DNA of 64,000 nucleotides, from positions 682,001 to 746,000 of the forward strand of contig NZ_JAUSXN010000001.1 in NCBI RefSeq assembly GCF_030816015.1, given 5' to 3'. Under the pieces are notes generated by a model. It did not search any database, was not told the DNA's origin, and saw nothing but the letters and a program-made list of their open reading frames with translations. Shown here piece after piece: positions 29,779 to 58,028 of the stretch. Every line of letters starts with the position of its first letter. Positions within the stretch are counted from its first letter, which is position 1. Source of the stretch: Pedobacter sp. W3I1 (GTDB taxonomy: Bacteria; Bacteroidota; Bacteroidia; Sphingobacteriales; Sphingobacteriaceae). The translations under genes and the position numbers were made by a program.

Positions 29779-30831
29779 GTGAAAAAAATCTTAATCACTG
29801 GTGGTGCGGGCTTTATTGGCTCTCATGTAGTCCGCCGTTTTGTAAATAATTATCCCGGGTACGAGATCGTCAATTTAGATAAACTTACCTATGCTGGTAA
29901 TCTGGCTAACTTAACCGATATTGAAAATAAGCCAAATTACAGATTTGTAAAGGAAGACATCACAGATGCTACTGCAATGTTTGATCTGTTTAAGGCAGAA
30001 AATTTTGATGCAGTGATTCATTTGGCAGCAGAAAGTCATGTAGATCGTTCTATTTCTGACCCAACCGCTTTTGTGATTACCAATGTTATCGGCACGGTGA
30101 ATTTATTAAATGCTGCCCGCGAATACTGGAAAGGTGATTATCATAAAAAACGTTTCTACCATGTAAGTACCGATGAGGTATATGGTGCTTTGGGTGAAAC
30201 AGGGATGTTTACCGAAACTACAGCCTACGATCCACATAGCCCCTATTCGGCATCAAAAGCGAGTTCTGATCATTTTGTGAGGGCCTATCATGATACCTAT
30301 GGTATGGACTGTGTAATTTCGAATTGCTCTAATAATTATGGTTCTCATCATTTCCCTGAGAAACTGATTCCACTGGCGATAAATAATATTAAAAATAACA
30401 AACTGGTACCAGTGTATGGTAAAGGTGAAAATGTACGCGATTGGTTATGGGTTGAAGACCATGCCAGGGCAATTGACGTGATTTTCCATAACTCGAAAAC
30501 AGGTGATACCTATAATATCGGTGGCCATAACGAATTGAAAAATATTGACCTGATTAATTTGCTTTGCACCATTATGGATCAGAAACTGGGCCGCGAAGCC
30601 GGGGAATCGGCCAAACTGATTACCTATGTAACCGACCGTGCAGGGCATGATTTACGTTATGCCATAGATTCAAGTAAACTGCAAAATCAATTGGACTGGG
30701 TACCAAGCTTACAATTTGAAGAAGGCTTGGCCAAAACAGTAGATTGGTATTTACAAAACGAAGACTGGTTAAACAATGTAACCTCTGGTAATTATCAATC
30801 TTATTACGAACAGCAGTACAACAATAAATAA
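29779..30831 (+). CDS. rfbB: dTDP-glucose 4,6-dehydratase
   Basis: A 350-aa extended SDR that turns dTDP-glucose into dTDP-4-keto-6-deoxyglucose, the branch point for L-rhamnose and other deoxysugars. The NAD motif GGAGFIGSHVVRRF is at residues 7-20, STDEVYG (about 129-135) and YSASKASSDH (about 156-165) give the catalytic Thr/Asp/Glu and Tyr-x3-Lys. The start is GTG. It begins the rfbBCDA unit with no gap to rfbC. Its product can also feed the 2,3-dehydratase module near 53 kb. Confidence 0.96.
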   Translation: MKKILITGGAGFIGSHVVRRFVNNYPGYEIVNLDKLTYAGNLANLTDIENKPNYRFVKEDITDATAMFDLFKAENFDAVIHLAAESHVDRSISDPTAFVITNVIGTVNLLNAAREYWKGDYHKKRFYHVSTDEVYGALGETGMFTETTAYDPHSPYSASKASSDHFVRAYHDTYGMDCVISNCSNNYGSHHFPEKLIPLAINNIKNNKLVPVYGKGENVRDWLWVEDHARAIDVIFHNSKTGDTYNIGGHNELKNIDLINLLCTIMDQKLGREAGESAKLITYVTDRAGHDLRYAIDSSKLQNQLDWVPSLQFEEGLAKTVDWYLQNEDWLNNVTSGNYQSYYEQQYNNK

Positions 30832-32307: not shown

Positions 32308-33168
32308 ATGAAAGGTATAATCTTAGCTGGTGGCAGCGGAACCCGTTTGCATCCTTTAACTTTGGCTTGTAGTAAACAGATGATGCCGGTTTACGATAAA
32401 CCGATGATCTATTACCCTTTATCTACCCTGATGTTGGCTGGGATTAAGGAAATCCTGATTATCTCTACCCCACACGATCTACCAAATTTTGAGAAATTAT
32501 TGGGTGATGGAACTACGTTGGGCTGTAAATTTAGTTATGCTGTGCAGGCAGAGCCTAATGGTTTAGCACAGGCTTTTGTGATCGGTGAGGAGTTTATTGG
32601 GGAAGATAAAGTTGCGCTAGTTCTGGGCGATAATATCTTCCATGGTGATGGAATGGTTAAATTATTACAAGCGAGTGCTGATCCTGATGGGGGGGTGGTA
32701 TTTGCTTATCAAGTTTCAGATCCTGAACGTTATGGTGTGGTGGAATTTGATGCCAATAAGAAGGCTATTTCTATTGAAGAAAAACCTGTTCAGCCGAAAT
32801 CTGATTATGCGGTGCCTGGCCTGTACTTTTATGATAATGAAGTGGTAGAGATCGCGAAAAATATTAAACCTTCTCCAAGAGGTGAATATGAAATTACGGA
32901 TGTAAACCGCATTTACTTAGAGCGTGGTAAATTAAAAGTAGGTGTTTTAAGCCGTGGTACGGCCTGGCTAGATACCGGAACTTTTACCTCTTTAATGCAG
33001 GCAGGGCAATTTGTACAGATTATTGAAGAAAGGCAGGGCTTAAAGATAGGTTGTATTGAAGAAATTGCTTACCGCATGGGTTTTATCGATGCAGAACAGC
33101 TTAAGGCTATCGCTACGCCATTGGTTAAAAGTGGCTATGGTAGTTATCTGTTGAAGCAGATTAAATGA
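32308..33168 (+). CDS. rfbA: Glucose-1-phosphate thymidylyltransferase
   Basis: A 286-aa RmlA that joins dTTP and glucose-1-phosphate to dTDP-glucose, the first step of the rhamnose pathway. [11 protein letters not shown] (residues 8-18), [17 protein letters not shown] (24-40), [20 protein letters not shown] (about 155-174) and WLDTGT (about 219-224) are all typical. The length is normal. It ends the rfbBCDA group and is followed by a hairpin terminator. Confidence 0.96.
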
Positions 33169-36541: not shown

Positions 36542-37282
36542 ATGTTAAGTTTTTTTTCGAAAAAGAATAAAGTAACTGATATCTCCTGGCTAGGCGTTGA
36601 TATTCATTCACATATCCTTCCCGGTATCGATGATGGTTCTCCAGATCTGGCTACTTCTTTGCGTTTTGTTAAATCATTACAGGAACTGGGGTTTGATCAA
36701 TTGATTGCTACACCACATATCTATAAAGAATTGTACCCAAATACAAAGGAAACAATCGTTAGTGCAAAAGATTTACTACAACAAGAAATGGATAAAGCTA
36801 ATGTTTCTTTGAAATTAAGTGCTGGTGCAGAGTATATGGTTGATCAGGATTTTAAAATGGATGGCCCATTATGTACTTTAGATCAGAAACATTTATTGAT
36901 CGAGATGTCGTATTTGTCTGAAAGTCCAGGGATTAGTCAGACCATTTTCGACATAGAAATAAAGGGATATCAGCCTATACTCGCTCATCCAGAACGCTAT
37001 ACTTTTTATTTTAGAGACAAAAGCCGCTTAAAAAGATTTAAAGAAAAAGGATGTCTTTTTCAATTAAACCTGTTGTCCATATTGGGTTATTATGGGAAAG
37101 ATGTTAAACAATTAGCTGAAGCTTTATTGAAGGATAAGATGTATGATCTTGCTGGTACAGACATGCATCATGATAAGCATTTGAGTGTTCTTACTGACGG
37201 TATTCAGTCGGGGCGACTATATGACTTATTGGGGCGATATGGTTTTAAAAATCAGGAGATTTTTGGTTCAATTTTAGTTTGA
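36542..37282 (+). CDS. CpsB/CapC-type protein tyrosine phosphatase (PHP domain)
   Basis: A 246-aa PHP-fold phosphatase that removes phosphate from the tyrosine cluster of the Wzc-type kinase and so controls capsule length and export. The metal motifs DIHSHILPGIDDG (residues 20-32), ATPHIY (about 60-65), AGAEYMV (about 98-104), LAHPERY (about 141-147) and GTDMHHD (about 206-212) are present. It is the first gene of the export set, followed by Wza- and Wzc-like genes, exactly as expected for this partner. Confidence 0.9.
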   Translation: MLSFFSKKNKVTDISWLGVDIHSHILPGIDDGSPDLATSLRFVKSLQELGFDQLIATPHIYKELYPNTKETIVSAKDLLQQEMDKANVSLKLSAGAEYMVDQDFKMDGPLCTLDQKHLLIEMSYLSESPGISQTIFDIEIKGYQPILAHPERYTFYFRDKSRLKRFKEKGCLFQLNLLSILGYYGKDVKQLAEALLKDKMYDLAGTDMHHDKHLSVLTDGIQSGRLYDLLGRYGFKNQEIFGSILV

Positions 37283-37398
37283 ATTATATAACAACCTGTA
37301 AGATAAGATCAAATGGGTGTTTAGTTCGAGATAAATAAGTAATTAAAGATTATTTTGAATCTGATGGTTGAGATTTTTAGATATTACAATTAAATGAT

Positions 37399-37406
37399 TA
37401 AGTTTG
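37399..37406 (+). promoter_or_regulatory. Putative -7 box of the wza-wzc genes
   Basis: TAAGTTTG, a perfect TAnnTTTG match followed by C, 45 bases upstream of the wza start. A matching -33 TTG is not seen (nearest at 37368-37370). Confidence 0.45.
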
Positions 37407-37451
37407 CAACCTGTTTAAAATTGTTGTTTTATTTTAAACAGAAATATACCT

Positions 37452-38258
37452 ATGAATAAAAAATATAATGTGATTAGAGGACTAAGTCTTGTAATGATAC
37501 TTTTTAGTACAGTCCTTGTATCTTCTTGTGTTAGTAGTAAAAAAATCGCCTATTTTCAAGATATTCAAGCTGTTAATCAGGCGAAGTTAGATAATGCAGC
37601 GGCATTTGTTGAGCCCACAATACAGCCAGACGATATCCTCAGCGTTAATATATTTACACTTAACCCCCAAAGTGGCGCAATTGTAAATCAAGCGGCCAAT
37701 ACGCCAACCTTGGGCGGTAATTCTAATAGCAGCCTTTCTACTCAGAGTACTGGATTTTTAGTAGATAAGAATGGGGAAATTGAGTTGTCCCTTATAGGAA
37801 AACTTAAAGTCGCTGGCTTAACTACTTATCAGGCAAGAGAACTGATTAGAGATAAAGCTGCTGAAGTTTATAAACAACCAAATGTTCAACTAAGGTTTGC
37901 TAATTTTAAAGTTAGCGTGTTAGGAGAAGTAAATGCTCCTTCAGCTTATACATTGCCAAATGAGAAAGTCAGTATTTTGGATGCATTGAGCTTGGCTGGG
38001 GATCTGACCATTTATGGAAAACGTGATAATGTATTAATTGTTCGGGATAATAATGGTAAGAAGGAATTTGCGAGGTTAAACCTCAATTCCTCAGATATTT
38101 TTAATAGTCCATTTTATTATTTAAAACAAAATGATGTTGTTTATGTCGAGCCAAATAAGCGAAAAGTATCTGCATCAAATTCAGCTCAAATTCAAACAAT
38201 AGGGGTTTTGGCATCTGTTGTTTCTGTAATCGTTTTGGCAATATCAAGTTTTAAATAG
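37452..38258 (+). CDS. wza: Polysaccharide export lipoprotein (Wza-like)
   Basis: A 268-aa outer-membrane export protein. A lipoprotein signal peptide ends in LVSSC (Cys at residue 26). The Poly_export domain follows (TIQPDDILSVNIFTLN at about 55-70; FLVDKNGEIELSLIGKLKVAGLT), then an SLBB domain (VSVLGEVNAPSAYTLPNEKVSILDAL, about 156-181), and a C-terminal hydrophobic helix (IGVLASVVSVIVLAIS) that would cross the outer membrane. It is shorter than E. coli Wza (379 aa), as usual in Bacteroidota. The Wzc-like gene follows after 11 bases. Confidence 0.92.
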   Translation: MNKKYNVIRGLSLVMILFSTVLVSSCVSSKKIAYFQDIQAVNQAKLDNAAAFVEPTIQPDDILSVNIFTLNPQSGAIVNQAANTPTLGGNSNSSLSTQSTGFLVDKNGEIELSLIGKLKVAGLTTYQARELIRDKAAEVYKQPNVQLRFANFKVSVLGEVNAPSAYTLPNEKVSILDALSLAGDLTIYGKRDNVLIVRDNNGKKEFARLNLNSSDIFNSPFYYLKQNDVVYVEPNKRKVSASNSAQIQTIGVLASVVSVIVLAISSFK

Positions 38259-38269
38259 CATTTTTATCA

Positions 38270-40631
38270 ATGAGTAATTTATCTGAAAGAATTATGACGC
38301 ACGATGTGGAGGAGGATGAAAGTATAAATTTAAAAGAAATCTTTAATAAGCTATTGGATAAATGGGCTTGGTTTGTCTGCAGTATTTTGTTATGTTTAAT
38401 CATAGCATTTATATACACACGTTATACACCACCGGTTTATCAGATCAATGCAAAACTGCTTGTGAATGACGATGATAAAGGCGGAAGTTTAGGTAAGCAG
38501 GCCGGCGCTTTAATGGACTTAGGAGGATTGATGGGAGCTAAAAATTCTGTTGACAATGAAGTTGAAATCTTGAAAACCAGGTTTTTAATGGAACAGGTTG
38601 TCCGTAAAATGCAACTAAATATTACATATTCAAGAAAAACTGATTTTGTCAGTCGGGAATTATATAATGCTCCTTTTAAGATTAACATTTTAAAGGGTAT
38701 CGATACGATAAAGGCCACTAAATTAGATGTTGTAAAGTTAGCAAGCAACAAGCTTAGGGTTAGTACAAGGGATTTTGAAAAAACAATAAAATGGAATGAG
38801 GAGTTTGCTGTAAACGGGATTGGAATTATCAACATAGAGCCAACTCCTTTTGGCATGGAAGAGAATAAGGAATATTTTACATTAATAAATTCGATTGATG
38901 AAAGAGTAGCCGCATTGATGAATCAGCTATCTGTTGGAGTGTCAAATAAACAAGTTAGTATAATTGATTTAGGCCTTTCATATGCTCTAACCCCAAAAAG
39001 GTGAGGATATACTAAATACACTTATTAAAAAATATACTGATGCGAATTTGAGTGATAAGAATGCGATAGCAGATAGTACATACAAATTTATTAAAGAGCG
39101 ATTAAATGTAATAGCTACCGAACTTGGTGATGTAGAAAATCAAGAGGAAGATTTTAAACAACAAAATAGACTTGCCGATATGAGCGAACAAGGGAAATTG
39201 TTAGTTCAGAACACTGGCGAATTTAGCGGCGAATTGGCAAAGGCCGAAACCCAGGTAACCATACTAACTGATTTAGAAAACTATATTAAGGATGAAACAA
39301 AAAATAAAAGGGTTTTTCCTGCTTCATTACTGCCATCGGATATGGTTTTCTCTGGATTAATGAATCAATATAATGCCTTGCTCATTGAGAGAGACAGACA
39401 ATTACTTAGTGTCACAGAAGAGAGTCCCTTCATCCAAAATATAGACACTCAGATTTTAGGATTGAGGAAAGGGATTTTGGCAAATATACAAAGCACTAAA
39501 AATAGTTATGTGCAAACCCGAAATAAGCTTAGAAATCAATTGAGTAAAGCTGAGGGACAAATTTCGGGGGTTCCTAAGGTAGAAAAAAATTATTTAAAAT
39601 TAGCTAGAAATAAAGGAATTAAGCAAGAGCTTTACATTTTTTTAATGCAGAAAGCAGAAGAAACCGCAATATCAAAAACCTCTAATATATCTGTTGCAAA
39701 AACGATAGATCCGCCAAAATCTCAAGTAATCCCAATCAGCCCTAAAAAGAGGATAGTATATCTGGCTGGATTGATCGCCGGTTTTATTTTTCCGATTGGT
39801 TTAATTTTTGCGCAAGGATTATTCAATACCACCATTTCAACAAAAGAAGATATTTTATCATTAACAAGGGTTCCTGTTGTAGGCGAAATTAGTCATAATA
39901 CTAGCGCTGACAATCTAATCGTTGCCAATCATAGTCGATCAGCTATATCAGAACAATTTCGGGCTTTGAGAACTAACTTATCTTTTTATTTAAAGAGTAA
40001 AAATGAAAAGGTTATTCTTTTAACATCCAGTATGAGCGGAGAAGGAAAATCATTTACAGCTATTAATTTAGGAAATATTTTGGCACTCGCGGGAAAAAAA
40101 GTTCTGCTAATGGAATTGGATCTGAGAAAACCCGGACTTTCTGCCAAATTGGATGTTAGGAACGATATTGGTTTTAGCAATTATACCATTAGCCCCGGAC
40201 TCAAGCTTGATGATATAGTTAAGCCATTATCTATTAATAAGAATATGTTTATTATATCTTCTGGACCTTTGCCACCAAATCCAGCTGAAACTTTGATGAG
40301 CGAACATACCTCTGTGTTAATCGCAAAGCTTAAAGAGGAGTTTGACTATATTATTATGGATGCTCCGCCAATTGGAATTATCACCGATGCACAATTGCTA
40401 GCAAACTACGCAGATGTTACCCTATATTTGGTTAGGCAAAAAGTAACACAAAAGCAACAATTGTCTATTGTTGATCATTTATATCGAACAGGTAAAATGA
40501 AAAATATCGGAATTGTTGTAAATGATATATTAAGTAAATATTACGGTTATGGGTATGGATATGGAACCTATGGTAATGTAGATGAACAGAGTAAATTAAA
40601 AAAGTTATTGAGTAAATTTAAGTCAAGCTAA
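38270..40631 (+). CDS. wzc: Wzc-like polysaccharide co-polymerase/tyrosine kinase, split by a frameshift
   Basis: Two frames (38270-39004, 244 aa; and the frame open from about 39000 to 40631) encode one protein. The first has the N-terminal membrane span ([18 protein letters not shown]) and Wzz domain and stops at TGA 39002-39004 after LSYALTPKR. The second continues with [16 protein letters not shown], directly after the shift, and holds the second span, the BY-kinase Walker A ([10 protein letters not shown]), Walker A' ([10 protein letters not shown]), Walker B (YIIMDAPP) and the Tyr-rich tail [12 protein letters not shown]. Skipping one base in the A5 run 38995-38999 gives 786 aa, the normal length. 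The second frame has only a TTG as possible start, so it is not a separate gene. Either the kinase is disrupted or the base is an error. Confidence 0.85.
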
Positions 40632-41770: not shown

Positions 41771-42720
41771 TGTCGGATTTGTATCTTCAAGATAAATCAG
41801 CTGCAATATATATCGCCGGGCATAAAGGAATGGTTGGTTCTGCCATTAAGCGTAAACTTGAGGCTGAGGGCTTTAAAAATATACTTTTGGCTGATTCTAA
41901 ATCTTTAGATTTAAGAAATCAACAATCAGTTTTCAACTGGTTTGAGCTGAATAAACCTGAATATGTTTTTTTAGCAGCAGCAAAAGTAGGCGGCATCGTT
42001 GCAAATAATACCTACCGAGGTGAATTCTTGTATGATAATTTGATGATTCAAAGCAATATCATAGAGGCATCCAGGCGAAATGATGTTAAGAAATTAATGT
42101 TTTTAGGTTCTTCCTGTATTTATCCTAAAATGGCTCCGCAACCATTGAAAGAAGAATATTTATTAACTGGTGAGTTAGAACAAACGAATGAACCTTATGC
42201 AATAGCAAAAATTGCGGGCATAAAAATGTGTGACGCCTACAGGGATCAATATGGTTGCAATTATATTTCGGTGATGCCGACCAATCTTTATGGCTTAAAC
42301 GACAATTATCACCCACAAAATTCACACGTATTGCCAGCCTTGATTAGAAGATTTCACGAGGCAAAAGAACAAAATTTGCCAACTGTAACCATTTGGGGTA
42401 CAGGTACCCCGAAACGAGAGTTTTTGTTTGCCGATGATTTAGCCGATGCCTGTTATTTCTTGATGCAAAATTATAACGAAAAAGGCTTGGTAAATGTAGG
42501 TTGCGGGGAAGATTTAAGTATTGCTGATTTAGCTGAAGCGGTAAAACAGGTGGTTGGATTTGAAGGGGAAATTAGTTTCGATCTTTCTAAACCAGATGGA
42601 ACACCTCGCAAATTAATGAATGTAGATAAGTTATCCGATTTGGGCTGGAAATATACCGTAAACCTAACAGAAGGTTTAAAAATGGCATATACTGATTTTA
42701 AGAATAAAACATTATCATAA
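41770..42720 (+). CDS. fcl: GDP-L-fucose synthase
   Basis: A 316-aa bifunctional epimerase/reductase that turns GDP-4-keto-6-deoxymannose into GDP-L-fucose. The N-terminal [14 protein letters not shown] (residues 16-29), [12 protein letters not shown] (about 73-84), [15 protein letters not shown] (about 110-124) with the catalytic Ser and Cys, and [13 protein letters not shown] (Tyr-x3-Lys, about 142-154) are all typical. Overlaps one base with gmd and one with the next gene, so all three are translated from one message. Confidence 0.96.
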
Positions 42721-43757
42721 TGAATTATACTTTAAAGGTTGCGGAGATTAGGCAGGAAACTGAGGATACAGTTACTTTGTGTTTTAAGCAACCTGGATTA
42801 AAAAAGGTTAAATATGAGGCTGGTCAATATCTTACCTTAATCTTCAGAATTAATGGCAGGCGTTATATCCGTCCTTATTCATTCTCATCCTGTCCAGGTG
42901 TTGATTCTTTTTTAGAAGTTACTGTTAAACGTGTAGAGAATGGCCTTGTTTCCAATCACATTAATGATATGGTACAAGTTGGTGATACTATTGAAGTAAT
43001 GCCACCAATGGGCGATTTTATTTATGATACAGGGCAAGATTTTGAAGATATATATTTCTGGGGAGTAGGTAGTGGGATTACACCTTTAATTTCTATTATT
43101 AAGTATATATTATCAACTACGACAGCCGTAAAGGTTCATTTGAATTATGGAAATAAAAACCATGAAACCACTATTTTTAAGAATCAAATTGAACTATTAA
43201 AAACACAGCATGCTGACCGCTTTATCGTACGTCATTTTCATACCAAATTATTTGTGGACGAAGCTAATCCACATTTAATTCAGGGAAGAATTGATCAAGC
43301 TAAGGCTTTACAGATTCTGGATGAAAGTTCTGATGCGAAAAAATGTGCTCATTATATCTGTGGGCCTGCTGGTTTAAAAGAATCTGTGAAAAGTGCCATT
43401 CTAAATAAATTTGGGTCTTTGGAAAATGTATATTCTGAAGATTTTGAACTGGTGAAAGATCCAAAGGATTTGATTGATGTTCATACTCAACATGTGCTCT
43501 TAAATTTTAATGGAAAGGGCTATCATCTCGAAGTAGCAAAGGGGAAAAGTATTTTAGAAGCGGCTTTAAATGCTGATATTGAATTGCCTTACTCGTGCCA
43601 AACTGGGAATTGTAGTACCTGCAAAGGAAAATTGCTAGATGGAAAGGCTAAAATGATAGGGTTAAATAAAAAAAGAGAGGATTTGGCAATAGATGAGTTT
43701 TTACTTTGTTGTGCCCATCCCTTAACAGAAAACGTACATATAGAAATATTAAGTTAA
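42720..43757 (+). CDS. CDP-6-deoxy-3,4-glucoseen reductase (E3-type), PaaE-like domain order
   Basis: A 345-aa flavo-iron-sulfur electron carrier. The N-terminal part binds FAD (RPYSFSSCP, about residues 53-61) and NAD(P)H (GVGSGITPLISI, about 115-126; YICGPAGL, about 214-221). The C-terminal part is a plant-type ferredoxin with CQTGNCSTC and a later Cys in LLCCAHP. Its place beside rfbF, rfbG and rfbH shows that it should pass electrons from NADH to the C3-dehydratase RfbH in 3,6-dideoxyhexose synthesis. The ferredoxin domain is C-terminal, whereas in the Yersinia enzyme AscD it is N-terminal. Confidence 0.85.
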   Translation: MNYTLKVAEIRQETEDTVTLCFKQPGLKKVKYEAGQYLTLIFRINGRRYIRPYSFSSCPGVDSFLEVTVKRVENGLVSNHINDMVQVGDTIEVMPPMGDFIYDTGQDFEDIYFWGVGSGITPLISIIKYILSTTTAVKVHLNYGNKNHETTIFKNQIELLKTQHADRFIVRHFHTKLFVDEANPHLIQGRIDQAKALQILDESSDAKKCAHYICGPAGLKESVKSAILNKFGSLENVYSEDFELVKDPKDLIDVHTQHVLLNFNGKGYHLEVAKGKSILEAALNADIELPYSCQTGNCSTCKGKLLDGKAKMIGLNKKREDLAIDEFLLCCAHPLTENVHIEILS

Positions 43758-43763
43758 AAAGAT

Positions 43764-44540
43764 ATGAAGGTAGTAATACTAGCAGGTGGTTTAGGTACCC
43801 GATTAATGGAAGAAACCGAAGCTCGCCCAAAACCGATGGTTGAAATTGGTGGAAAGCCAATTCTGTGGCATATCATGAAGATATACGAGGCTTATGGTTA
43901 TAACGATTTCGTATTGTGCCTGGGCTACAAAGCACAAAGTATTAAAGAATATTTCTTAAATTACTACCTGTACAATTCGGATGTTTCTATTGATATTGAA
44001 AAAAACAAGGTTGATGTACATTTTTCTAATTCTGAATCTTTTAAAGTTACCTTGGTTGATACTGGATTAACGACGAATACTGCTGGTAGGATTAAAAAAA
44101 TTCAAAAATATGTTGACGGTGAAACCTTTATGTTAACCTATGGTGATGGTGTTGCTGATATTAACATTAACGCACTGGTGGAATTTCACAATAGTCATGA
44201 TAAATTGGCTACTTTAACGAGTATTCAGACTCCTGGACGTTTTGGCAACATTGAAATGGATAATAATGGAACCGTTAAACATTTCGTAGAAAAACCTCAG
44301 GGTGATGGCATGTGGATTAATGGTGGATTCTTTGTTCTTGATTCTGGGATTTTTAAATATTTAGAAGGAGATGTTGAAGATGTGCAGTGGGAAAATAAAC
44401 CGCTAAAAGAAATTGCCAATGATGGTCAATTAGCTGCTTTTAAGCATTCGGGCTTCTGGAAACCAATGGATGCCCTGAGAGACAGAATTGAATTGGAACA
44501 ACTTTGGAGCAGTGGTGAAGCTAAATGGAAAATTTGGTAG
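43764..44540 (+). CDS. rfbF: Glucose-1-phosphate cytidylyltransferase
   Basis: A 258-aa enzyme that joins CTP and glucose-1-phosphate to CDP-glucose, the first step to CDP-3,6-dideoxyhexoses. The signature is GGLGTRLMEETEARPKPMVEIGG, beginning at residue 7, where the usual LSEET appears as LMEET, followed by KPILWHIMKIY and the YGDGVADI motif (about 131-138). The length is normal. It lies 6 bases after the E3 gene and 1 base before rfbG. Confidence 0.95.
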   Translation: MKVVILAGGLGTRLMEETEARPKPMVEIGGKPILWHIMKIYEAYGYNDFVLCLGYKAQSIKEYFLNYYLYNSDVSIDIEKNKVDVHFSNSESFKVTLVDTGLTTNTAGRIKKIQKYVDGETFMLTYGDGVADININALVEFHNSHDKLATLTSIQTPGRFGNIEMDNNGTVKHFVEKPQGDGMWINGGFFVLDSGIFKYLEGDVEDVQWENKPLKEIANDGQLAAFKHSGFWKPMDALRDRIELEQLWSSGEAKWKIW

Positions 44541-44541
44541 T

Positions 44542-45633
44542 ATGAGTTTTCAAAATATATATCAAGGTAAAAAGGTATTAATTACCGGACATACAGGTTT
44601 TAAAGGGTCTTGGATGGCGATCTGGTTGAAGGAATTGGGTGCCGATGTATATGGTTATGCTTTACCGCCATATTCTGAAATGGACAATTTCGTAACCAGT
44701 AAACTTGCAGATCATGTACATCATCTTGAAGGTGATGTGCGTGATGGGGCTAAATTGAAACAATATTTTCAAGATGTACAACCTGACTTTGCATTTCATT
44801 TAGCCGCGCAGCCGCTTGTAATTTTATCATATAAAGATCCCGTTGGAACCTTTGATACCAATTTAATGGGAACGGTTAATTTTTGGGAAGCTGTAAGGGC
44901 AACTCCATCTGTTAAGGCGGCTGTTAATGTAACCACAGATAAATGCTACGATAACAAGGAATGGGTGTGGGGCTACAGGGAAAATGATCCTATGGGCGGA
45001 AAGGACCCTTACAGCGCATCTAAAGGATGTTCTGAATTGATTACGAACGCTTATCTTGAATCTTTTTTTAAGGCCGAAGGTACCTGTAATATCGCTTCTG
45101 CTCGAGCAGGGAATGTAATTGGCGGAGGGGACTGGGCTGCCGATCGTATTATTCCTGATTATTTTAGGGCAGTCAAAGAAGGAAAAAAGTTAGAAATCAG
45201 AAATCCTTTCGCTACCCGCCCATGGCAACATGTTTTAGAGCCGTTAAGCGGATATCTAAATCTTGGAGCAGAACTTTGGTTAAAGGGTAAAGACTTTAGC
45301 GGCGGTTGGAACTTTGGGCCAGAAGACAATACTAATTATTCTGTAAAAGAGTTGATTGATGAAATGCTTACGCTTGATGGCCGTGGAGGATACATCATTC
45401 CTGAGCAGACTCAAAAAATGCACGAGGCTATTTTATTAAAGTTAGATATCTCGAAGGCCGCTAATTTTCTAAAGTGGAAACCTGCATTAGGTTTTAAAGA
45501 AACTGTAGATTTCACACTTACTGGTTATTTAGACGATCTTAGCGAAGACGGAAACATGTTTAACCTGCGATCGAAACAAATTGAACTTTACACTAAAGTA
45601 GCTTTAAATAAAGCGATAAACTGGGCATTATAA
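44542..45633 (+). CDS. rfbG: CDP-glucose 4,6-dehydratase
   Basis: A 363-aa extended SDR from the ATG at 44542 (MSFQNIYQGKK). The frame extends 18 codons upstream into rfbF, but those residues are the rfbF end read in another frame. It has ITGHTGFKGSWMAIWLKELGA (the RfbG-type variant of the NAD motif, begins about residue 14), VTTDKCYDNKEW (about 131-142), and DPYSASKGCSEL (about 154-165). It turns CDP-glucose into CDP-4-keto-6-deoxyglucose. The stop codon overlaps the next start by one base. Confidence 0.95.
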   Translation: MSFQNIYQGKKVLITGHTGFKGSWMAIWLKELGADVYGYALPPYSEMDNFVTSKLADHVHHLEGDVRDGAKLKQYFQDVQPDFAFHLAAQPLVILSYKDPVGTFDTNLMGTVNFWEAVRATPSVKAAVNVTTDKCYDNKEWVWGYRENDPMGGKDPYSASKGCSELITNAYLESFFKAEGTCNIASARAGNVIGGGDWAADRIIPDYFRAVKEGKKLEIRNPFATRPWQHVLEPLSGYLNLGAELWLKGKDFSGGWNFGPEDNTNYSVKELIDEMLTLDGRGGYIIPEQTQKMHEAILLKLDISKAANFLKWKPALGFKETVDFTLTGYLDDLSEDGNMFNLRSKQIELYTKVALNKAINWAL

Positions 45634-46169
45634 TGGAAATATTAGATACACCATTCCAGGATTTATATATAATGGAATACAATAGCTTTCTTGATAATAG
45701 AGGGGAATTTGTTAAGACAATACATAAGGAAACATTTTTGGAGAAAAACCTGAACTATGTTTTTACAGAAAGTTTTTATTCGATTTCCAACAAGAATGTG
45801 ATTCGTGGAATGCATTTTCAGGTGCCTCCCGAAGATCATTCAAAGTTGGTTTATGTTGTTACCGGATCAATCATAGATGTTATCTTAGATATCCGAACAA
45901 GCTCTGAAACTTATGGGGAATTTTTCTTTTTAGAATTATCTGCTAAGAACAGGAAAGGTATTTATATTGGAAAAGGATTTGCACATGGGTTTTTATCGTT
46001 AGAAAATGGTACAACTGTAGAGTATCATACATCAACCAGTCAAAACCGTGAATGTGAAGCAGGTATTAGGTTCGATTCGTTTGGATATGATTGGGAAGTA
46101 AAAAAGCCTATATTGTCTAACAGAGATTTAGAATTTAAGATTTTTTCTGAAATACAAAGCCCATTTTAA
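45633..46169 (+). CDS. RmlC-like epimerase, probable AscE (CDP-sugar 5-epimerase)
   Basis: A 178-aa cupin of the dTDP-4-dehydrorhamnose epimerase family, with FTESFYSISNKNVIRGMHFQVPP (His in RGMH at about residue 62) and GKGFAHGFLSLENG (about 113-126). It differs from the rfbC product at 30.8 kb and lies inside the CDP-dideoxyhexose genes, which matches AscE of Yersinia, the C5 epimerase of the CDP-L-ascarylose pathway. The function is inferred from family and position. One base overlaps with rfbG; one base separates it from the next gene. Confidence 0.75.
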   Translation: MEILDTPFQDLYIMEYNSFLDNRGEFVKTIHKETFLEKNLNYVFTESFYSISNKNVIRGMHFQVPPEDHSKLVYVVTGSIIDVILDIRTSSETYGEFFFLELSAKNRKGIYIGKGFAHGFLSLENGTTVEYHTSTSQNRECEAGIRFDSFGYDWEVKKPILSNRDLEFKIFSEIQSPF

Positions 46170-46170
46170 C

Positions 46171-47052
46171 ATGAAGGCATTTATCATTGGAGCATCGGGT
46201 TTGGTTGGCTCACATTGTTTATCGGTTTTTAAGAATAATAACTGGGATGTGATGGGTACCCATTTAAGCTTTTCTACAGATTCAACTATAGCTTTTGATT
46301 TCTTAAAGGATGACTTAGAAATTTTATTTAACAATTCAAATTTTCAACCAGATGTAATCATTCATTGTGCAGCATTAACCAATGTGGATTATTGTGAAAA
46401 AAATGTAGAGGAAAGCTACGAAAAAACAGTTTTGCCAACAGAGAAAATCGTTGACTATTGTAAAAAAAATAATGTAAAATTAGCGTTCATTTCTACGGAT
46501 TATGTATTTGATGGCGCTAATGGTCCCTATCGGGAAGATGCCGAAGTTAATCCGTTAAATGTATATGGAAGCCACAAATTAGATTGTGAGCAACTCGTCT
46601 CAACATTATCTGATTATTTAATTTTGCGGATTACGAATGTTTACGGTGAAGAAAAAAGGTCAAAAAATTTTATCTCAAGATTAATTGAAGATCTTCGTAA
46701 TAACGTAGTAAAAGAGCTTAATCTGCCATATGATCAGTTTGCAACACCGATATATGCCGGGGATATTGCAAATATGACACTTAAATTATGTGAAGACCGT
46801 AAAAATGGTATTTACCATTTATCAGGTACGGACTATTATAACAGATTTCAGCTTGCGTCAAAAGTCTTATCTTATTTCAAGGATAATAAGACATTAAAAA
46901 TTAATTCTGTAAAAACATTAAGTGTTAATCAAGCTGCCTTGAGACCCTTAAATGGAGGCTTATTAAATACAAAATTTATTGAAGAGTATCCTGAATTTAC
47001 ATTTGAAAATGTAGATTTCTTTATCTTAAAAGTAACAAAACATGAACTATAG
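46171..47052 (+). CDS. RmlD-like reductase, probable AscF (CDP-dideoxyhexulose reductase)
   Basis: A 293-aa SDR of the dTDP-4-dehydrorhamnose reductase type, with [14 protein letters not shown] (residues 7-20), [26 protein letters not shown] (about 108-121) and [11 protein letters not shown] (Tyr-x3-Lys, about 130-140). In this position it best fits AscF, which reduces the 4-keto group of the CDP-3,6-dideoxyhexulose after epimerisation. A role in a second rhamnose-like pathway cannot be excluded. Its last 11 bases overlap the rfbH start. Confidence 0.75.
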
Positions 47053-48346
47053 ACATTTTAGCGGAACCTTGCAAGAACAACTATCTGAGATAGCCGCAAA
47101 AAACGCAAAGCGAGAAATTATACCGGGGAAGGATTATATTGCCGTTACAGGAAAAGTAATGGATGAAGATGACCTGTTATTAGGTGTAGATTCTATGTTG
47201 GATGGCTGGCTTACAGCTGGGCGTTTTGCAACTGAATTTGAATATGAGTTTGCTAAATATTTTGGAGCTACTAAAGCGTTATTGGTAAATTCGGGCTCAT
47301 CAGCCAATTTGGTGGCATTTTACACGCTAACATCTCCTAAACTTGGTGATAGAGCGATTAAGCCTGGAGACGAGGTAATTACGGTTGCAGCTGGCTTTCC
47401 CACAACTGTTAATCCAATAGTACAAGCCGGTGCGATACCTGTTTTTATTGATGTGGATATTGCTACGCATAATGTTAAAGCAGATATGATTGAAGCTGCA
47501 GTTTCATCAAAAACGAAAGCAATTATGATCGCCCACTCGCTAGGTAATCCATTTGATTTGGACGAGGTGATGCGTGTTGCTAGAAAATATAATTTGTGGG
47601 TTATTGAGGATGACTGCGATTCCTTAGGTGCAACATACAAGGGAAAGAAAACGGGAACATTTGGTGATTTATCTACATTTTCATTTTATCCTGCTCACCA
47701 TATTACAATGGGTGAAGGTGGAGCTGTAGTAGTTAATAACCCTGAATTAGCTAAAATTGCTGAAAGCTTTAGAGATTGGGGAAGAGATTGTTATTGTTTA
47801 CCAGGCAAAGATGATACTTGTGGCTGTCGCTTTGGTCAACAGCTGGGGAGTCTTCCTTACGGTTATGACCACAAGTATACTTATTCACATGTGGGTTTTA
47901 ACCTCAAAGTAACCGACATGCAAGCTGCATTAGGTGTTTCACAACTTAAAAAAGTTGAGCATTTTATACAAAGAAGGAAAGAAAACTACAAAGCTTTATA
48001 TTCTAGAATGAAGGAATTTGAAGAAGTATTTATATTGCCGGAACCAACCCCAGATTCTGATCCTTCTTGGTTTGGATTTTTAATGACACTTAGAGAGGGT
48101 GATTCGAATGATCGTCATATGTTGGTGCAGCATCTAGAAGAGAAAAAAATCGGGACGCGATTACTCTTTGCTGGTAACTTATTAAGACAGCCTGCCTATG
48201 CTAATGTTGAACATAGAGTAGTAGGGGACTTAGTAAATACAGATATTATTATGAACCAATCATTTTGGTTAGGTGTTTGGCCGGGGTTAAATGAAAATCA
48301 TTACGACTATATAACAGATGTTATTAGGAACTATATTAATTCTTAA
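47042..48346 (+). CDS. rfbH: CDP-6-deoxy-4-hexulose 3-dehydrase (RfbH/E1)
   Basis: A 434-aa PMP-dependent [2Fe-2S] enzyme that removes the C3 hydroxyl of CDP-4-keto-6-deoxyglucose. The residue where aminotransferases have Lys is His, in [13 protein letters not shown] (His219/220), and the four cysteines lie at 192, 250, 252 and 260, spacing C-X57-C-X1-C-X7-C, as known for the Yersinia E1 cluster. NSGSSANL and [12 protein letters not shown] are the cofactor-fold motifs. With the E3 gene at 42.7 kb it completes C3 deoxygenation. It overlaps the upstream reductase gene by 11 bases. Confidence 0.96.
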
Positions 48347-53189: not shown

Positions 53190-53951
53190 TTGATAATGAA
53201 AACGATTAAAGAAATTTTGGAATTGAGGAAGAAAATATTGGAAACTTATCCAGAACTTTCGCCCATTGGAGTTGAACTTATTTTATCATCTGCAGTAGAG
53301 TATAATCCAGAGTTAAGTTTAGATAGTTTTTTCAAGTGGCTGAACGATTTAAACGAAAAGGTAACGTTTGAAATCGAATTTACTCCCTTATCAAAACTTA
53401 AGAATTGGAAAGTTGAAGAAAATGGTAATATTAAACATGAAAGTGGCAGGTTTTTTAGCATTGAAGGAATTCATGTTAAGGCAACTATAAATAACTTAAC
53501 CAAGGAGTGGGACCAACCAATTATCAATCAACCAGAAGTTGGATTCTTAGGAATTTTATGCCAGGAGAGAAATGGAATACTCTGCTTTTTGATGCAGGGT
53601 AAAATTGAACCTGGAAATGTTAATAAAATTCAGCTCTCACCCACTTTGCAGGCCACAAAGAGTAACTTTACGCAAGTTCACGGAGGAAATGTTCCAAAAT
53701 TCTTGGAATACTTTAAAGATGAAGTGTTTGGAAAAAAAATAATTGTTGATCAATTACAGTCTGAGCAGGGGGCAAGGTTTCTGAAAAAGAGAAATAGAAA
53801 TATGATTATACAGATGGATCAGAGTATAGAGCTTGATGTTCCAGATAATTTTTGTTGGTTAACATTAAACCAGCTAAAAACATTGCTCAATTATCCAAAT
53901 CTGATAAATATGGATACTAGAACTGTTTTATCATGCATTCAAATTATATAA
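53190..53951 (+). CDS. NDP-hexose 2,3-dehydratase, N-terminal half
   Basis: A 253-aa protein (251 aa from the more likely ATG at 53196) that corresponds to the first of two repeats in NDP-hexose 2,3-dehydratases such as TylX3/SpnO. These remove the C2 hydroxyl of dTDP-4-keto-6-deoxyglucose. The repeat shows WDQPIINQPEVGFLGIL (about 107-123), FLMQGKIEPGN, LSPTLQATKSNF and LQSEQGARFLKKRNRNM (about 188-204). The next ORF is the second repeat and is in the same reading frame, separated by one TAA and one codon. The two halves together have 482 aa, the size of one full enzyme. Confidence 0.85.
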   Translation: MIMKTIKEILELRKKILETYPELSPIGVELILSSAVEYNPELSLDSFFKWLNDLNEKVTFEIEFTPLSKLKNWKVEENGNIKHESGRFFSIEGIHVKATINNLTKEWDQPIINQPEVGFLGILCQERNGILCFLMQGKIEPGNVNKIQLSPTLQATKSNFTQVHGGNVPKFLEYFKDEVFGKKIIVDQLQSEQGARFLKKRNRNMIIQMDQSIELDVPDNFCWLTLNQLKTLLNYPNLINMDTRTVLSCIQII

Positions 53952-53954
53952 GAT

Positions 53955-54644
53955 ATGGCAATTTACAATAGCGATTTTAAAAACCAACTCCTAGAATCTA
54001 TCCTTACAAAAGATGGTGATTTAAACTCATTTGAATTAATAATTAGCTGGTTTACTAATTTGAAGATGTACGCTTCATTGGAAATTAAAGAATGCAGTAT
54101 TAACCAGACACAAAACTGGAGTATTGATGATTTATCAGTATCACATGATTCTGGCAAGTACTTTGAAGTTCTTGGTGTAAAATGCAAAGTCGGAAATAGA
54201 GAAATGTCTGAATGGTATCAACCTATCATTAGACAGAGAGAAGAGGGGATAATAGGTTTTATCATAAAAAAGATAAATGGGATATATCATTTACTGATCC
54301 AAGCAAAATTAGAAGCTGGAAACTTTGATGTTTTAGAAATGGCACCAACTGTTCAATGCATCACAGGGAGTTATAATAATCCAGAATATAATGTTGTATA
54401 TCTTGATTACTTTTTAGACAAGAAGGGGATTGTTCACTACGATACACTCCAGTCTGAAGAAGGTGGGAGATTTTATCAAGAACAGAATCAGAACATTGTG
54501 ATTGAAATTGGAGAAGATGAATTGAATGAAATTCATCCAAATTATATATGGATGACAGTGAAGCAGGCTAAGGCCTTTATAAAATTTAATAATTATTTTA
54601 ATATTGAAGCCAGAAGTTTATTGGCTTGTATTACCCCTGTTTAA
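53955..54644 (+). CDS. NDP-hexose 2,3-dehydratase, C-terminal half
   Basis: A 229-aa protein homologous to the preceding ORF: SEWYQPIIRQREEGIIGFI, LIQAKLEAGNFDVLEMAPTVQ and LQSEEGGRFYQEQNQNI (about 170-186), the signature of the dehydratase repeats. It starts with ATG one codon after the TAA of the first half and in the same frame. Either the two halves form a heterodimer, or a fused gene was interrupted by one stop codon. The stop overlaps the ketoreductase start by one base. Confidence 0.85.
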   Translation: MAIYNSDFKNQLLESILTKDGDLNSFELIISWFTNLKMYASLEIKECSINQTQNWSIDDLSVSHDSGKYFEVLGVKCKVGNREMSEWYQPIIRQREEGIIGFIIKKINGIYHLLIQAKLEAGNFDVLEMAPTVQCITGSYNNPEYNVVYLDYFLDKKGIVHYDTLQSEEGGRFYQEQNQNIVIEIGEDELNEIHPNYIWMTVKQAKAFIKFNNYFNIEARSLLACITPV

Positions 54645-55624
54645 TGAAAAAGCCCTTAAATATAGCGATTATAGGATGTTCGGCAATAGCAGATAAAACT
54701 GTTTTGCCAACAATTATTGAAAACCCGCTGTTTAATTTGGTAATGGTAGGCTCCAGATCTGTTGAAAAAGGTAAACAGTTTGCTGCAAAGTATAAATGCG
54801 ATTTTGGATCTTATGATGATGTTCTTAATTCCTCAAGAGTTGATGCAGTTTATGTTTCTGTACCAACGGGACTCCATTATGAATGGGGCATGCGGGTTTT
54901 GCAAGCGAAAAAACATTTATTGCTTGAAAAGCCTTTTACATCGACTTTAGAGCAATCTCAATCCCTTATAAATATTGCAGCCCAATTTAATTTAATTGCT
55001 ATGGAAGGTTTAGCGTACGTATATCATCCATATTTTGAGAAATTGAAAGAATTGATTAATAAAAAAATTATCGGAGACATAAGGCTATTCGAGAGTTCAT
55101 TTGGCTTTCCCAGCTTACCATTAACTGATATAAGAAATCAAAATGAAATTGGAGGTGGCGCGATTTTAGATAATTTAATTTATCCGCTAAGCGCGAGCTT
55201 GGAGATTTTCGGCAAAAAATATACTAATAAGTCGTATTACTTTCAAAATAATGAAGAATTGCAGATCGATGAGAGAGGATTTTTAAGGCTAGATTGGGCA
55301 AACTATTCAGCAAATTTAACATACGGATTTGGTTTTTCGTACAAAAATCGGATAGAAATATGGGGCAGCGAAGGCACGATCATTGTCGATAGGGCATATA
55401 CTAAACCAGCAAATATGACAGCAGAAATTGTTATTAAAACAGATAAGGGCACGGAAATTGTTGAAATTCGAGCAGTAAATCAATTTCATCTTATGCTAGA
55501 TGGTTTTTATCATAAAATTTCTGGTGAAGATCGAAGTTTTAAGAATGAAAAGGATGATATCCTTATGAGAATGGAAATTATTTCTGAAATGTATAAGGCT
55601 TCCCAAAATTTAAATCATGAGTAA
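54644..55624 (+). CDS. Gfo/Idh/MocA oxidoreductase, probable NDP-sugar 3-ketoreductase
   Basis: A 326-aa protein from the ATG at 54644 (MKKPLNIAII); an upstream GTG-type start would lie inside the previous gene. It has the Rossmann start IAIIGCSAIADKTVLP (about 6-21) and EKPFTST (about 95-101) with the conserved Lys. Enzymes of this type (SpnN, KijD10 and similar) reduce the 3-keto group of the 2,3-dehydratase product, and the position directly after that gene supports the same role. It overlaps the next SDR gene by 8 bases. Confidence 0.82.
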   Translation: MKKPLNIAIIGCSAIADKTVLPTIIENPLFNLVMVGSRSVEKGKQFAAKYKCDFGSYDDVLNSSRVDAVYVSVPTGLHYEWGMRVLQAKKHLLLEKPFTSTLEQSQSLINIAAQFNLIAMEGLAYVYHPYFEKLKELINKKIIGDIRLFESSFGFPSLPLTDIRNQNEIGGGAILDNLIYPLSASLEIFGKKYTNKSYYFQNNEELQIDERGFLRLDWANYSANLTYGFGFSYKNRIEIWGSEGTIIVDRAYTKPANMTAEIVIKTDKGTEIVEIRAVNQFHLMLDGFYHKISGEDRSFKNEKDDILMRMEIISEMYKASQNLNHE

Positions 55625-56501
55625 AATTTCAATTTTAGGAGCCAATGGATACATTGGACAGCACTTAGCTTACAATTTATTAGAAAATCATGAGCATGAT
55701 ATAGCCCTGTTTGACGTTCAAGCTACGGGTAAAATTAAAAATGAACTCTATGAGCAACTTGACTTGAGTAGCGACATTAGCAATAATGCTACAAAAAAAT
55801 TATGCGACTCAGATTACATTTATTTTTTTTCTGGCTTAACGGGGACGTATAAAAGCATAGAGGAATATCAAAATTTTATTAACATAAATGAACTTGGATT
55901 ATTAAAGGTCTTAGATTTAATAAAGGATCAGATAACAAAGCCAAAAATTATATTTCCTTCAACACGCTTGATTTATAAAGGCAAAAAAGGTGTCTTATTA
56001 AAAGAAGATGATGAAAAGGAATTTAAAACAATTTATTCTATAAACAAATTTGCTTGCGAGAGCTATTTGGAAATTTATAGAAATTTATTTGGCTTAGATT
56101 ATACAATATTTAGAATATGTGTGCCATATGGTAATATGATCGGTACAGAATTGTCATATGGTACATTAGGCCATTTTGTAAGTAAAGCCCAAAATGGGCA
56201 ACCTATCAGTCTGTATGGTGACGGGAATTTATGCAGAACTTTTACACATGTAGAAGATCTTACCAATATTTTAATTATTGGAGGGATGGTTAGTGACACA
56301 AATAATAAAGTATACAACATTGGAGGAAAGGACCATCTTTCATTATTGGATGTAGCAACGCCTATCGCAGATTTTTTTAATGTTACAGTTAATTTTATTC
56401 CGTTTCCAGAGATAGATATGTTAATTGAGTCGGGAGATACCATGTTTGATGATTCTGCATTAATGGCAACTATTAAGTATAACTATATTTCATTCATTTA
56501 A
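55617..56501 (+). CDS. NAD-dependent epimerase/4-ketoreductase-like SDR, C-terminus altered
   Basis: A 294-aa extended SDR with ILGANGYIGQHLAYNLL (about 5-21), PSTRLIYKG (about 119-127), and YSINKFACESYLEIY (Tyr-x3-Lys, about 141-155). It probably reduces the 4-keto group of the 2-deoxysugar. The end reads KYNYISFI then stop. In the next frame the sequence continues SFNDWMGTLK, stop at about 56524, the expected tail. Deleting one CATT from the CATTCATT at 56491-56498 joins the two, so a 4-bp duplication seems to have shifted the last residues. Confidence 0.8.
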   Translation: MSKISILGANGYIGQHLAYNLLENHEHDIALFDVQATGKIKNELYEQLDLSSDISNNATKKLCDSDYIYFFSGLTGTYKSIEEYQNFININELGLLKVLDLIKDQITKPKIIFPSTRLIYKGKKGVLLKEDDEKEFKTIYSINKFACESYLEIYRNLFGLDYTIFRICVPYGNMIGTELSYGTLGHFVSKAQNGQPISLYGDGNLCRTFTHVEDLTNILIIGGMVSDTNNKVYNIGGKDHLSLLDVATPIADFFNVTVNFIPFPEIDMLIESGDTMFDDSALMATIKYNYISFI

Positions 56502-56690
56502 CGATTGGATGGGGACCCTAAAATAGGGTATATTGAGGGATATGAATTAAAAGTTAACGCTATAATTGGGTAATCAGATTTCCATCTAATAATTACAGTA
56601 GCGTTTATAGATCTAAAGAGGCTTGCTGCAAACATTTAACAAAACACTAGTGCCAACATATAAACGAAACTTAAAATTAATAAATTTTTA

Positions 56691-58028
56691 ATGAAACAAC
56701 ACTTGGCAAGCGCTAATCAGTATACTGTTCCAGTAATTAGAAAGACAAGTTCAGTCGAGGATTTTTTAATAAAGGGTTTTTTAATTTTTTTACCTTTTTC
56801 CCAGGCATTGACAATAAATATTATGTTTCCTTTAAAGTTATCTGAGATTTGTTTGTTATGTTTAATTTCTTTAAAGTTAGCATCTGGAAAAACAGAAATG
56901 TGGAAGGTTGGAAAACCAAGCCTAACAATTATAATGTTTTGCATTTGTATTTTAATATCATTAATTATAAATACGCTCTATACTTACAACTACCCATTAA
57001 CTACTAGTGCCGTTAGAATAAGTCCGACTGTTGACAGTGTGCTAAAATTTATATATGTTTTTTTGGTTGTTGCAGGGATGTTTATTACAACGGATATTTT
57101 AAAAAGAAAACCAGAATTAATTAAATTTTTGTTTGTAGGTGCAATTATTTCTGCATCATATTCATGGTACCTTTTTTTTAGTGGGATACTTCATCTACCA
57201 GTATTAAAATTACCAGGAATGGAGGAAGAATCACAGATGATAATGAATGTTATCCGCAGTGGAACATTTAAAGAAGGTAACTACATGGGTTTCTATTTAT
57301 TGCTTATGGGAATCATTTCCTTTTTTTATGAGAGGAAAAAAATGGCTTATTTTTTTTGGGGAACAATATTAACCACATTTTCTACAGCTTCAATATTTTG
57401 CTTATTTTTATTTTTTGTTATATATACATATTATGTTTATAAAAAACATAAGCTAAAATTGATTGCCTCTATAACTGTAATTGCCATTTCTGTTACTCTA
57501 TTAACTCAGTTTAGTGATGGTTTTAGAAGTTTGATCTATAATAAAATTTTCGCTAGTGAAGATTCTGTTGAGAATACTAATGATATATATTCAAGGCTTG
57601 ATCGTTTAAATACTACAATTACAGGACTGAAAATGGCTACTTCTAATCCTTTCTTTGGTGTTGGACTTTCTAGTTATGGAATGCATTATAGTCACTTTAA
57701 CAATTTACCTGATTTCGATTTAGGGGGCAAAAGAATTCCAAATAATATATATGTCGAAATTTTATCAGAAACTGGTATTTTTGTATTTATACTTTTTATA
57801 TATTTTCTTTATCTTTTATATAAACGTGCTAAAAAAGTGTCAAATGTGCTAGCGGCTGGTATACTTGCTTCTTGTGTCTACTTTTTTGCTTTCCCTACTT
57901 TTACAATGCTTTTTATTTGGGTCTTTTTTAGTGTCATTCTATCGGCTCAAACATTAATAAAATCAAACTATGAATATGATCAATCGAAATTTATTAACGC
58001 TGAGAATGATTATAGACATGGAATTTAA
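56691..58028 (+). CDS. wzy: Wzy-like O-antigen/capsule polymerase
   Basis: A 445-aa polytopic protein with about ten spans and a large periplasmic loop (about residues 155-190 and 275-345). The loop before the last spans has RLDRLNTTITGLKMATSNPFFGVGLSSYG followed by IPNNIYVEILSETGIFVFILFIYFL, the classic Wzy/WaaL-type (O-antigen ligase family) signature. In this setting, next to wzx and glycosyltransferases, polymerase is more likely than ligase. About 190 bases without a gene precede it. Confidence 0.8.
   Translation: MKQHLASANQYTVPVIRKTSSVEDFLIKGFLIFLPFSQALTINIMFPLKLSEICLLCLISLKLASGKTEMWKVGKPSLTIIMFCICILISLIINTLYTYNYPLTTSAVRISPTVDSVLKFIYVFLVVAGMFITTDILKRKPELIKFLFVGAIISASYSWYLFFSGILHLPVLKLPGMEEESQMIMNVIRSGTFKEGNYMGFYLLLMGIISFFYERKKMAYFFWGTILTTFSTASIFCLFLFFVIYTYYVYKKHKLKLIASITVIAISVTLLTQFSDGFRSLIYNKIFASEDSVENTNDIYSRLDRLNTTITGLKMATSNPFFGVGLSSYGMHYSHFNNLPDFDLGGKRIPNNIYVEILSETGIFVFILFIYFLYLLYKRAKKVSNVLAAGILASCVYFFAFPTFTMLFIWVFFSVILSAQTLIKSNYEYDQSKFINAENDYRHGI

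Follow-up and report, generated by a model that had tools for sequence, protein, structure and literature searches.

Can a sugar pathway that has been described chiefly in antibiotic gene clusters serve the surface-polysaccharide locus of a member of the Bacteroidota? The question is raised by four consecutive open reading frames (ORFs), all on the plus strand, at 53196-56501 of a 64,000-nucleotide stretch of the Pedobacter sp. W3I1 genome (contig NZ_JAUSXN010000001.1, positions 682,001 to 746,000), referred to here as the window. This cassette probably leads to a deoxythymidine diphosphate (dTDP)-linked 2,6-dideoxyhexose for a Pedobacter surface polysaccharide, and the products of its first two genes, which correspond to the two halves of a nucleoside diphosphate (NDP)-hexose 2,3-dehydratase, likely assemble as one enzyme. 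The cassette is real, conserved, and likely working within a Bacteroidota surface-polysaccharide locus. Its genes are as follows:

53196..53951, plus strand: N half of a split NDP-hexose 2,3-dehydratase, catalytic-pocket module (251 amino acids; PF03559, 252 bits)
53955..54644, plus strand: C half of the split 2,3-dehydratase, second-pocket module (229 amino acids; PF03559, 231.5 bits)
54644..55624, plus strand: Gfo/Idh/MocA sugar 3-ketoreductase, KijD10-like (326 amino acids; Pfam match; best Protein Data Bank [PDB] match 3rbv, 156 bits)
55617..56501, plus strand: extended short-chain dehydrogenase/reductase (SDR), likely a 4-ketoreductase (Pfam Epimerase; GANGYIG and YSINK motifs)

A preliminary description of this DNA had placed the cassette at 53190..56524. 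Its four ORFs are real, and its enzyme identities (PF03559 halves, a Gfo/Idh/MocA 3-ketoreductase, and an SDR) are borne out as far as sequence allows; the outer limits are revised here, with the N half beginning at the ATG at 53196 (53190 being an alternative TTG) and the SDR frame ending at 56501. The gene overlaps that it described are found between the C half and Gfo (1 nucleotide, with the ATG at 54644 taken as the Gfo start in place of the TTG at 54626 in the mechanical ORF list) and between Gfo and the SDR (8 nucleotides), but not between the N and C halves, where stop and start are separated by a 3-nucleotide gap.

A 2,3-dehydratase encoded by two genes

In a Pfam profile search with a cut-off of 25 bits, PF03559 matched both 53196-53948 and 53955-54641. 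The sole significant solved relative by sequence, for either ORF, is EvaA, the dTDP-sugar 2,3-dehydratase of Amycolatopsis orientalis, with the best match covering EvaA residues 25-246 for the first ORF and 261-461 for the second. Because the ORFs match different regions of EvaA, they represent the N half and the C half of a single enzyme rather than duplicates of one half. The alignment thus assigns them as the N-type and C-type modules of a single EvaA-type NDP-hexose 2,3-dehydratase, in keeping with their earlier labeling as halves. The structure model of the C half (predicted local distance difference test [pLDDT] score, 84) has EvaA as its best PDB match (Foldseek E value, 1.4e-15).

According to a review, mutation of E139 and E190 of EvaA abolished activity (PMC8987622). 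In the N half of the window, these two residues align with E138 and E190, and the equivalent glutamates are present in all 21 single-module N proteins, among them that of the window, and in 108/108 N modules of full-length proteins, every row supplied having been scored. The matching positions of the C module are glutamate in 48/48 single-module proteins and in 96/108 and 107/108 full-length ones; the first of them is aspartate in EvaA itself. Pocket-B mutants of EvaA, named E352 and D353, stayed active according to the same review (PMC8987622); in the EvaA chain numbering used here, residue 352 is valine and 353 is aspartate, which does not match the E352 of the review. The C-module glutamate pair is mostly kept, with the EvaA aspartate as an exception, though pocket B of EvaA is reported to be dispensable.

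By comparison with related genomes, the two-gene split is real and conserved. Pedobacter sp. ISL-64, which shares 96% nucleotide identity with the window over 20.7 kb, contains the same two dehydratase ORFs at identical lengths, and the gene order N-C-Gfo-SDR is common to the window, ISL-64, and a third genome (G286), the N and C proteins of which are identical to those of Pedobacter cryophilus (P0098 and P0131). Among the best 120 of 1129 matches to the N half, 20 are single-module proteins and 100 are longer. Fourteen of these 20 have a single-module C protein (47 listed among the best 120 of 474 C-half matches) on a contig of equal size; ISL-64 and P. cryophilus account for two of the 14 pairs, and gene order was seen for these two only. 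Conversely, 33 of the 48 single-module C rows have no N partner among the matches listed. Codon changes between the window and ISL-64 are predominantly synonymous, with 1 nonsynonymous and 11 synonymous changes in the N half, 1 and 9 in the C half, 2 and 5 in Gfo, and 5 and 10 in the first 288 SDR codons; the ratio of nonsynonymous to synonymous rates (dN/dS) is ~0.02 for each dehydratase half.

These data bear on the possibility that the split reflects a pseudogene in decay or an artefact of sequencing. Such an origin might be suspected because two other window genes are frame-disrupted relative to ISL-64 and because, in both the window and ISL-64, the halves lie in one frame, with a stop codon plus one more codon between them. 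It is nonetheless extremely improbable and was rejected, given that both ORF lengths recur in ISL-64, that the halves of G286 lie in different frames, that N and C matches pair as described, and that dN/dS is low. Read-through of the stop into a fused chain was also considered: the frame allows it in the window and ISL-64, and the different frames rule it out in G286.

In a quick tree of 129 rows, the 21 split N halves (the 20 listed and the window) are set apart from the remaining rows by a branch with 100% support in the Shimodaira-Hasegawa-like approximate likelihood ratio test (SH-aLRT). In the corresponding quick tree of C modules, all 48 single-module rows fall within one 50-row group with 100% support; the same group holds two full-length rows (P0053 and P0079), both long-branched, so that the C tree does not cleanly show a single origin of the split.

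Reduction steps and the predicted sugar

Among solved structures, the Gfo protein matches best to 3rbv, the sugar 3-ketoreductase KijD10. The EKP lysine and YP tyrosine of 3rbv, presumably catalytic in a KijD10-type ketoreductase, align with the window protein. The SDR carries the NAD-binding motif GANGYIG and the YxxxK motif in the form YSINK. Together with these genes and the dehydratase, the window contains rmlA and rmlB, completing the set of rmlA, rmlB, 2,3-dehydratase, and 3-ketoreductase genes for a dTDP-2,6-dideoxyhexose. Both are located 20-24 kb upstream of the cassette, where the preliminary description had noted them as rfbA and rfbB:

29779..30831, plus strand: rmlB, dTDP-glucose 4,6-dehydratase (TIGR01181, 461 bits, over cut-off)
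32308..33168, plus strand: rmlA, glucose-1-phosphate thymidylyltransferase (TIGR01207, 478 bits, over cut-off)

In the predicted route, the N and C proteins would form a heteromer mimicking the EvaA chain, and rmlA and rmlB would supply its substrate, dTDP-4-keto-6-deoxyglucose. Removal of water by this heteromer, with loss of the C2 hydroxyl and conversion of C3 to a ketone, would give dTDP-3,4-diketo-2,6-dideoxyhexose. The Gfo protein would then reduce C3 and the SDR would reduce C4, after which some glycosyltransferase of the locus would place the sugar into the repeat unit. This order of steps follows the pathways in which TylX3, SpnO, and EvaA take part, described in some measure in the review (PMC8987622). 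Within the limits of sequence evidence, the pathway order proposed earlier holds, with rmlA/rmlB, the 2,3-dehydratase, the 3-ketoreductase, and the SDR all present; sequence does not reveal the configuration at C3 and C4 or whether the sugar is D or L.

Several observations, beyond the two full-length rows in the C-module tree, weigh against this reading. The SDR matches general epimerase/dehydratase families only and is far under all NCBIfam cut-offs scored, so its role as 4-ketoreductase is assigned by position. In the fetched 15-16 kb of eight class-wide loci, an SDR homologue is found in three (adjoining Gfo in one, L059) and not in the other five, whereas Gfo adjoins the dehydratase in seven. 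These findings would fit an alternative in which the dehydratase and Gfo steps are correct, the SDR is an epimerase or handles another sugar, and a different enzyme, for example, RmlD, carries out the C4 reduction. This alternative is unlikely, though with a real chance of being right; set against it is the location of the SDR directly after Gfo in the window, ISL-64, G286, L059, a Bacteroidales metagenome-assembled genome (MAG; L004), and Flavobacterium sp. LC2016-13 (L005).

The remaining points concern gene integrity and modeling. The SDR comprises 294 amino acids in the window versus 302 in ISL-64, its tail being out of frame such that only the last residues differ; the tail frame used by ISL-64 ends near 56524. 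Likewise, the glycosyltransferase at 58172-59420 is divided into two ORFs (109 and 317 amino acids) in the window versus one in ISL-64 (415 amino acids) and G286 (413 amino acids). Both genes are thus frame-disrupted in the window and intact in ISL-64, and these changes may be assembly errors or real. Finally, the N-half structure model, built from a 20-row alignment, is weak (mean pLDDT, 65); its best PDB match is EvaA, and it was not used as a basis for any conclusion.

The surrounding polysaccharide locus

The cassette is surrounded by glycosyltransferase genes and lies among further genes of polysaccharide synthesis and export:

36542..40631, plus strand: CpsB/CapC, polysaccharide export, Wzz, and kinase-like genes (Pfam PF19567, PF02563, PF02706, PF13807)
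42720..48346, plus strand: cytidine diphosphate (CDP)-3,6-dideoxyhexose block, consisting of reductase, ddhA, ddhB, RmlC-like, RmlD-like, and RfbH/ddhC genes
56691..58028, plus strand: Wzy/O-antigen ligase-type polymerase (PF04932, 55 bits)

Within the CDP-3,6-dideoxyhexose block, TIGR02623, TIGR02622, and NF011936 matched over cut-off, and the PaaE-like reductase, RmlC-like, and RmlD-like proteins were all under cut-off. In the same locus, the rhamnose genes rmlA-D and gmd are all over cut-off. The co-presence of several sugar pathways described earlier is borne out by rmlA-D, gmd, and the CDP-3,6-dideoxyhexose block, as well as by fcl, which at 499.3 bits is just under its cut-off of 500, and by the nucleotide-sugar dehydrogenase, which is over the general cut-off and under that for TviB.

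This neighborhood could point to a different product, namely, a 2,3,6-trideoxyhexose formed by the cassette together with the neighboring RfbH/DdhC 3-dehydrase and reductase, as occurs in rhodinose-type pathways. RfbH, reductase, RmlC-like, and RmlD-like genes are indeed located ~5-10 kb upstream of the cassette, and a Streptomyces lavendulae plasmid carries rfbH, 2,3-dehydratase, and Gfo genes side by side. In the window, however, the RfbH gene is grouped with the CDP-glucose genes ddhA and ddhB, while rmlA and rmlB give dTDP sugars. Moreover, RfbH is over cut-off in three of the eight PF03559-bearing genomes examined (the window genome, ISL-64, and G846), and both G286 and the Flavobacterium sp. 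LC2016-13 genome (G847) carry the whole cassette with no RfbH match over cut-off. The cassette is therefore independent of RfbH, which weakens the trideoxy sugar reading for the window and leaves it quite improbable.

The locus also bears on whether the predicted 2,6-dideoxyhexose might decorate a small molecule, as in actinomycetes, instead of a polysaccharide. Those described 2,3-dehydratases that the review mentions do belong to antibiotic pathways (PMC8987622). The neighbors of the cassette are, in contrast, export, Wzz, Wzy-type, and glycosyltransferase genes, and no polyketide or peptide synthetase match was found among the scanned window ORFs, which were a part of those present, no genome-wide search having been made. 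Decoration of a small molecule is accordingly considered very unlikely.

Other features of the window include an ORF at 49266, taken as a candidate flippase, which matched no Pfam family at 1e-6, and a GT2-type protein at 48364-49269 that is 81% identical to its ISL-64 counterpart, compared to 91-100% for the remaining proteins that were aligned there, a difference that may point to exchange or rapid change. An alginate lyase-family protein is encoded on the minus strand at 13230-14315.

Distribution and comparison with known systems

PF03559 was sought in four overlapping genome samples, each of which includes the window genome. Among 148 relatives it occurs in the window genome alone; it further occurs in 3 of 400 genomes from the order (the window genome, ISL-64 [G434], and G286, all three split), in 9 of 395 genomes of a class sample, and in 3 of 395 genomes of a phylum sample. 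In the other eight class-sample carriers, a single open frame (423-522 amino acids) encodes both modules, and with seven of them having an adjoining Gfo gene, the pathway is not unique to the window genome. In one phylum-sample carrier (G831), each module falls at the end of a different contig, which makes fused and split forms indistinguishable. A dTDP-glucose 4,6-dehydratase is over cut-off in 6/6 searched genomes carrying dehydratase and Gfo. The search for this cassette in other Bacteroidota proposed in the preliminary description located it, with a split dehydratase in ISL-64 and G286 and a fused one in L004 and L005.

Beyond these samples, a fused Bacteroidota query matched 85 of 72,556 plasmid records, of which 83 bear actinomycete names, and a scan of 50,697 phage records gave no match to the N half at E 1e-5. 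The S. lavendulae plasmid mentioned above, pSA3239 (L024), has a gene arrangement that would be appropriate for a trideoxy sugar. In a Pelagibacteraceae genome (L006, 9944-12143), a Gfo gene comes after the gene for a fused, divergent 2,3-dehydratase.

The cassette had been proposed as the best candidate in this stretch for an undescribed system. Given that this pathway has already been described for antibiotics and that fused dehydratase-Gfo-SDR homologues occur in polysaccharide loci of Flavobacterium and Bacteroidales genomes, with more carriers across the class, this description is too strong. The split is a more unusual feature than the pathway, and what may be new is the two-gene form of the dehydratase, the pathway and the fused form being already known; this claim to novelty is weak. 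A literature search found, among the entries listed, no report of the cassette in Bacteroidota, although such a search cannot show that the split dehydratase is unreported. A more tentative proposal, plausible although we lean slightly against it, is that a Bacteroidota lineage turned the fused dehydratase, with its duplicated modules, into an obligate two-subunit enzyme, with the glutamate pair kept in both subunits, to make surface 2,6-dideoxyhexoses beside 3,6-dideoxyhexoses.

If the prediction is correct, surface polymers of Bacteroidota come within the reach of a sugar pathway otherwise described chiefly in antibiotic clusters, and a natural two-piece 2,3-dehydratase allows the EvaA-type second pocket to be studied alone.

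Among characterized proteins, KijD10 (3rbv) is the closest solved protein to the window Gfo, with the lysine and tyrosine aligned. It belongs to the kijanimicin pathway, an antibiotic context unlike that of the window, and the similarity is moderate (156 bits). Flavobacterium sp. LC2016-13 and the Bacteroidales MAG share with the window the dehydratase-Gfo-SDR order among glycosyltransferase-like ORFs, but their dehydratase is one 466-amino-acid chain. The actinomycete pairs on Streptomyces and Pseudonocardia plasmids resemble the window in having Gfo/Idh/MocA directly after the dehydratase in three of four fetched records (in the fourth, Gfo was not within the 60-base flank), and differ in their fused enzyme and actinomycete hosts. 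EvaA (4j7g/4j7h) contains both modules and the two pocket-A glutamates, as does the window pair, and is the best structural match of both half models. Its placement of both modules on one chain, treated here as the EvaA architecture and not as the definition of the family, is absent from the window, ISL-64, and G286, where the modules are separate ORFs. EvaA is a single chain which, according to the review, belongs to an antibiotic pathway (PMC8987622), whereas the window dehydratase is encoded by two genes in a polysaccharide locus.

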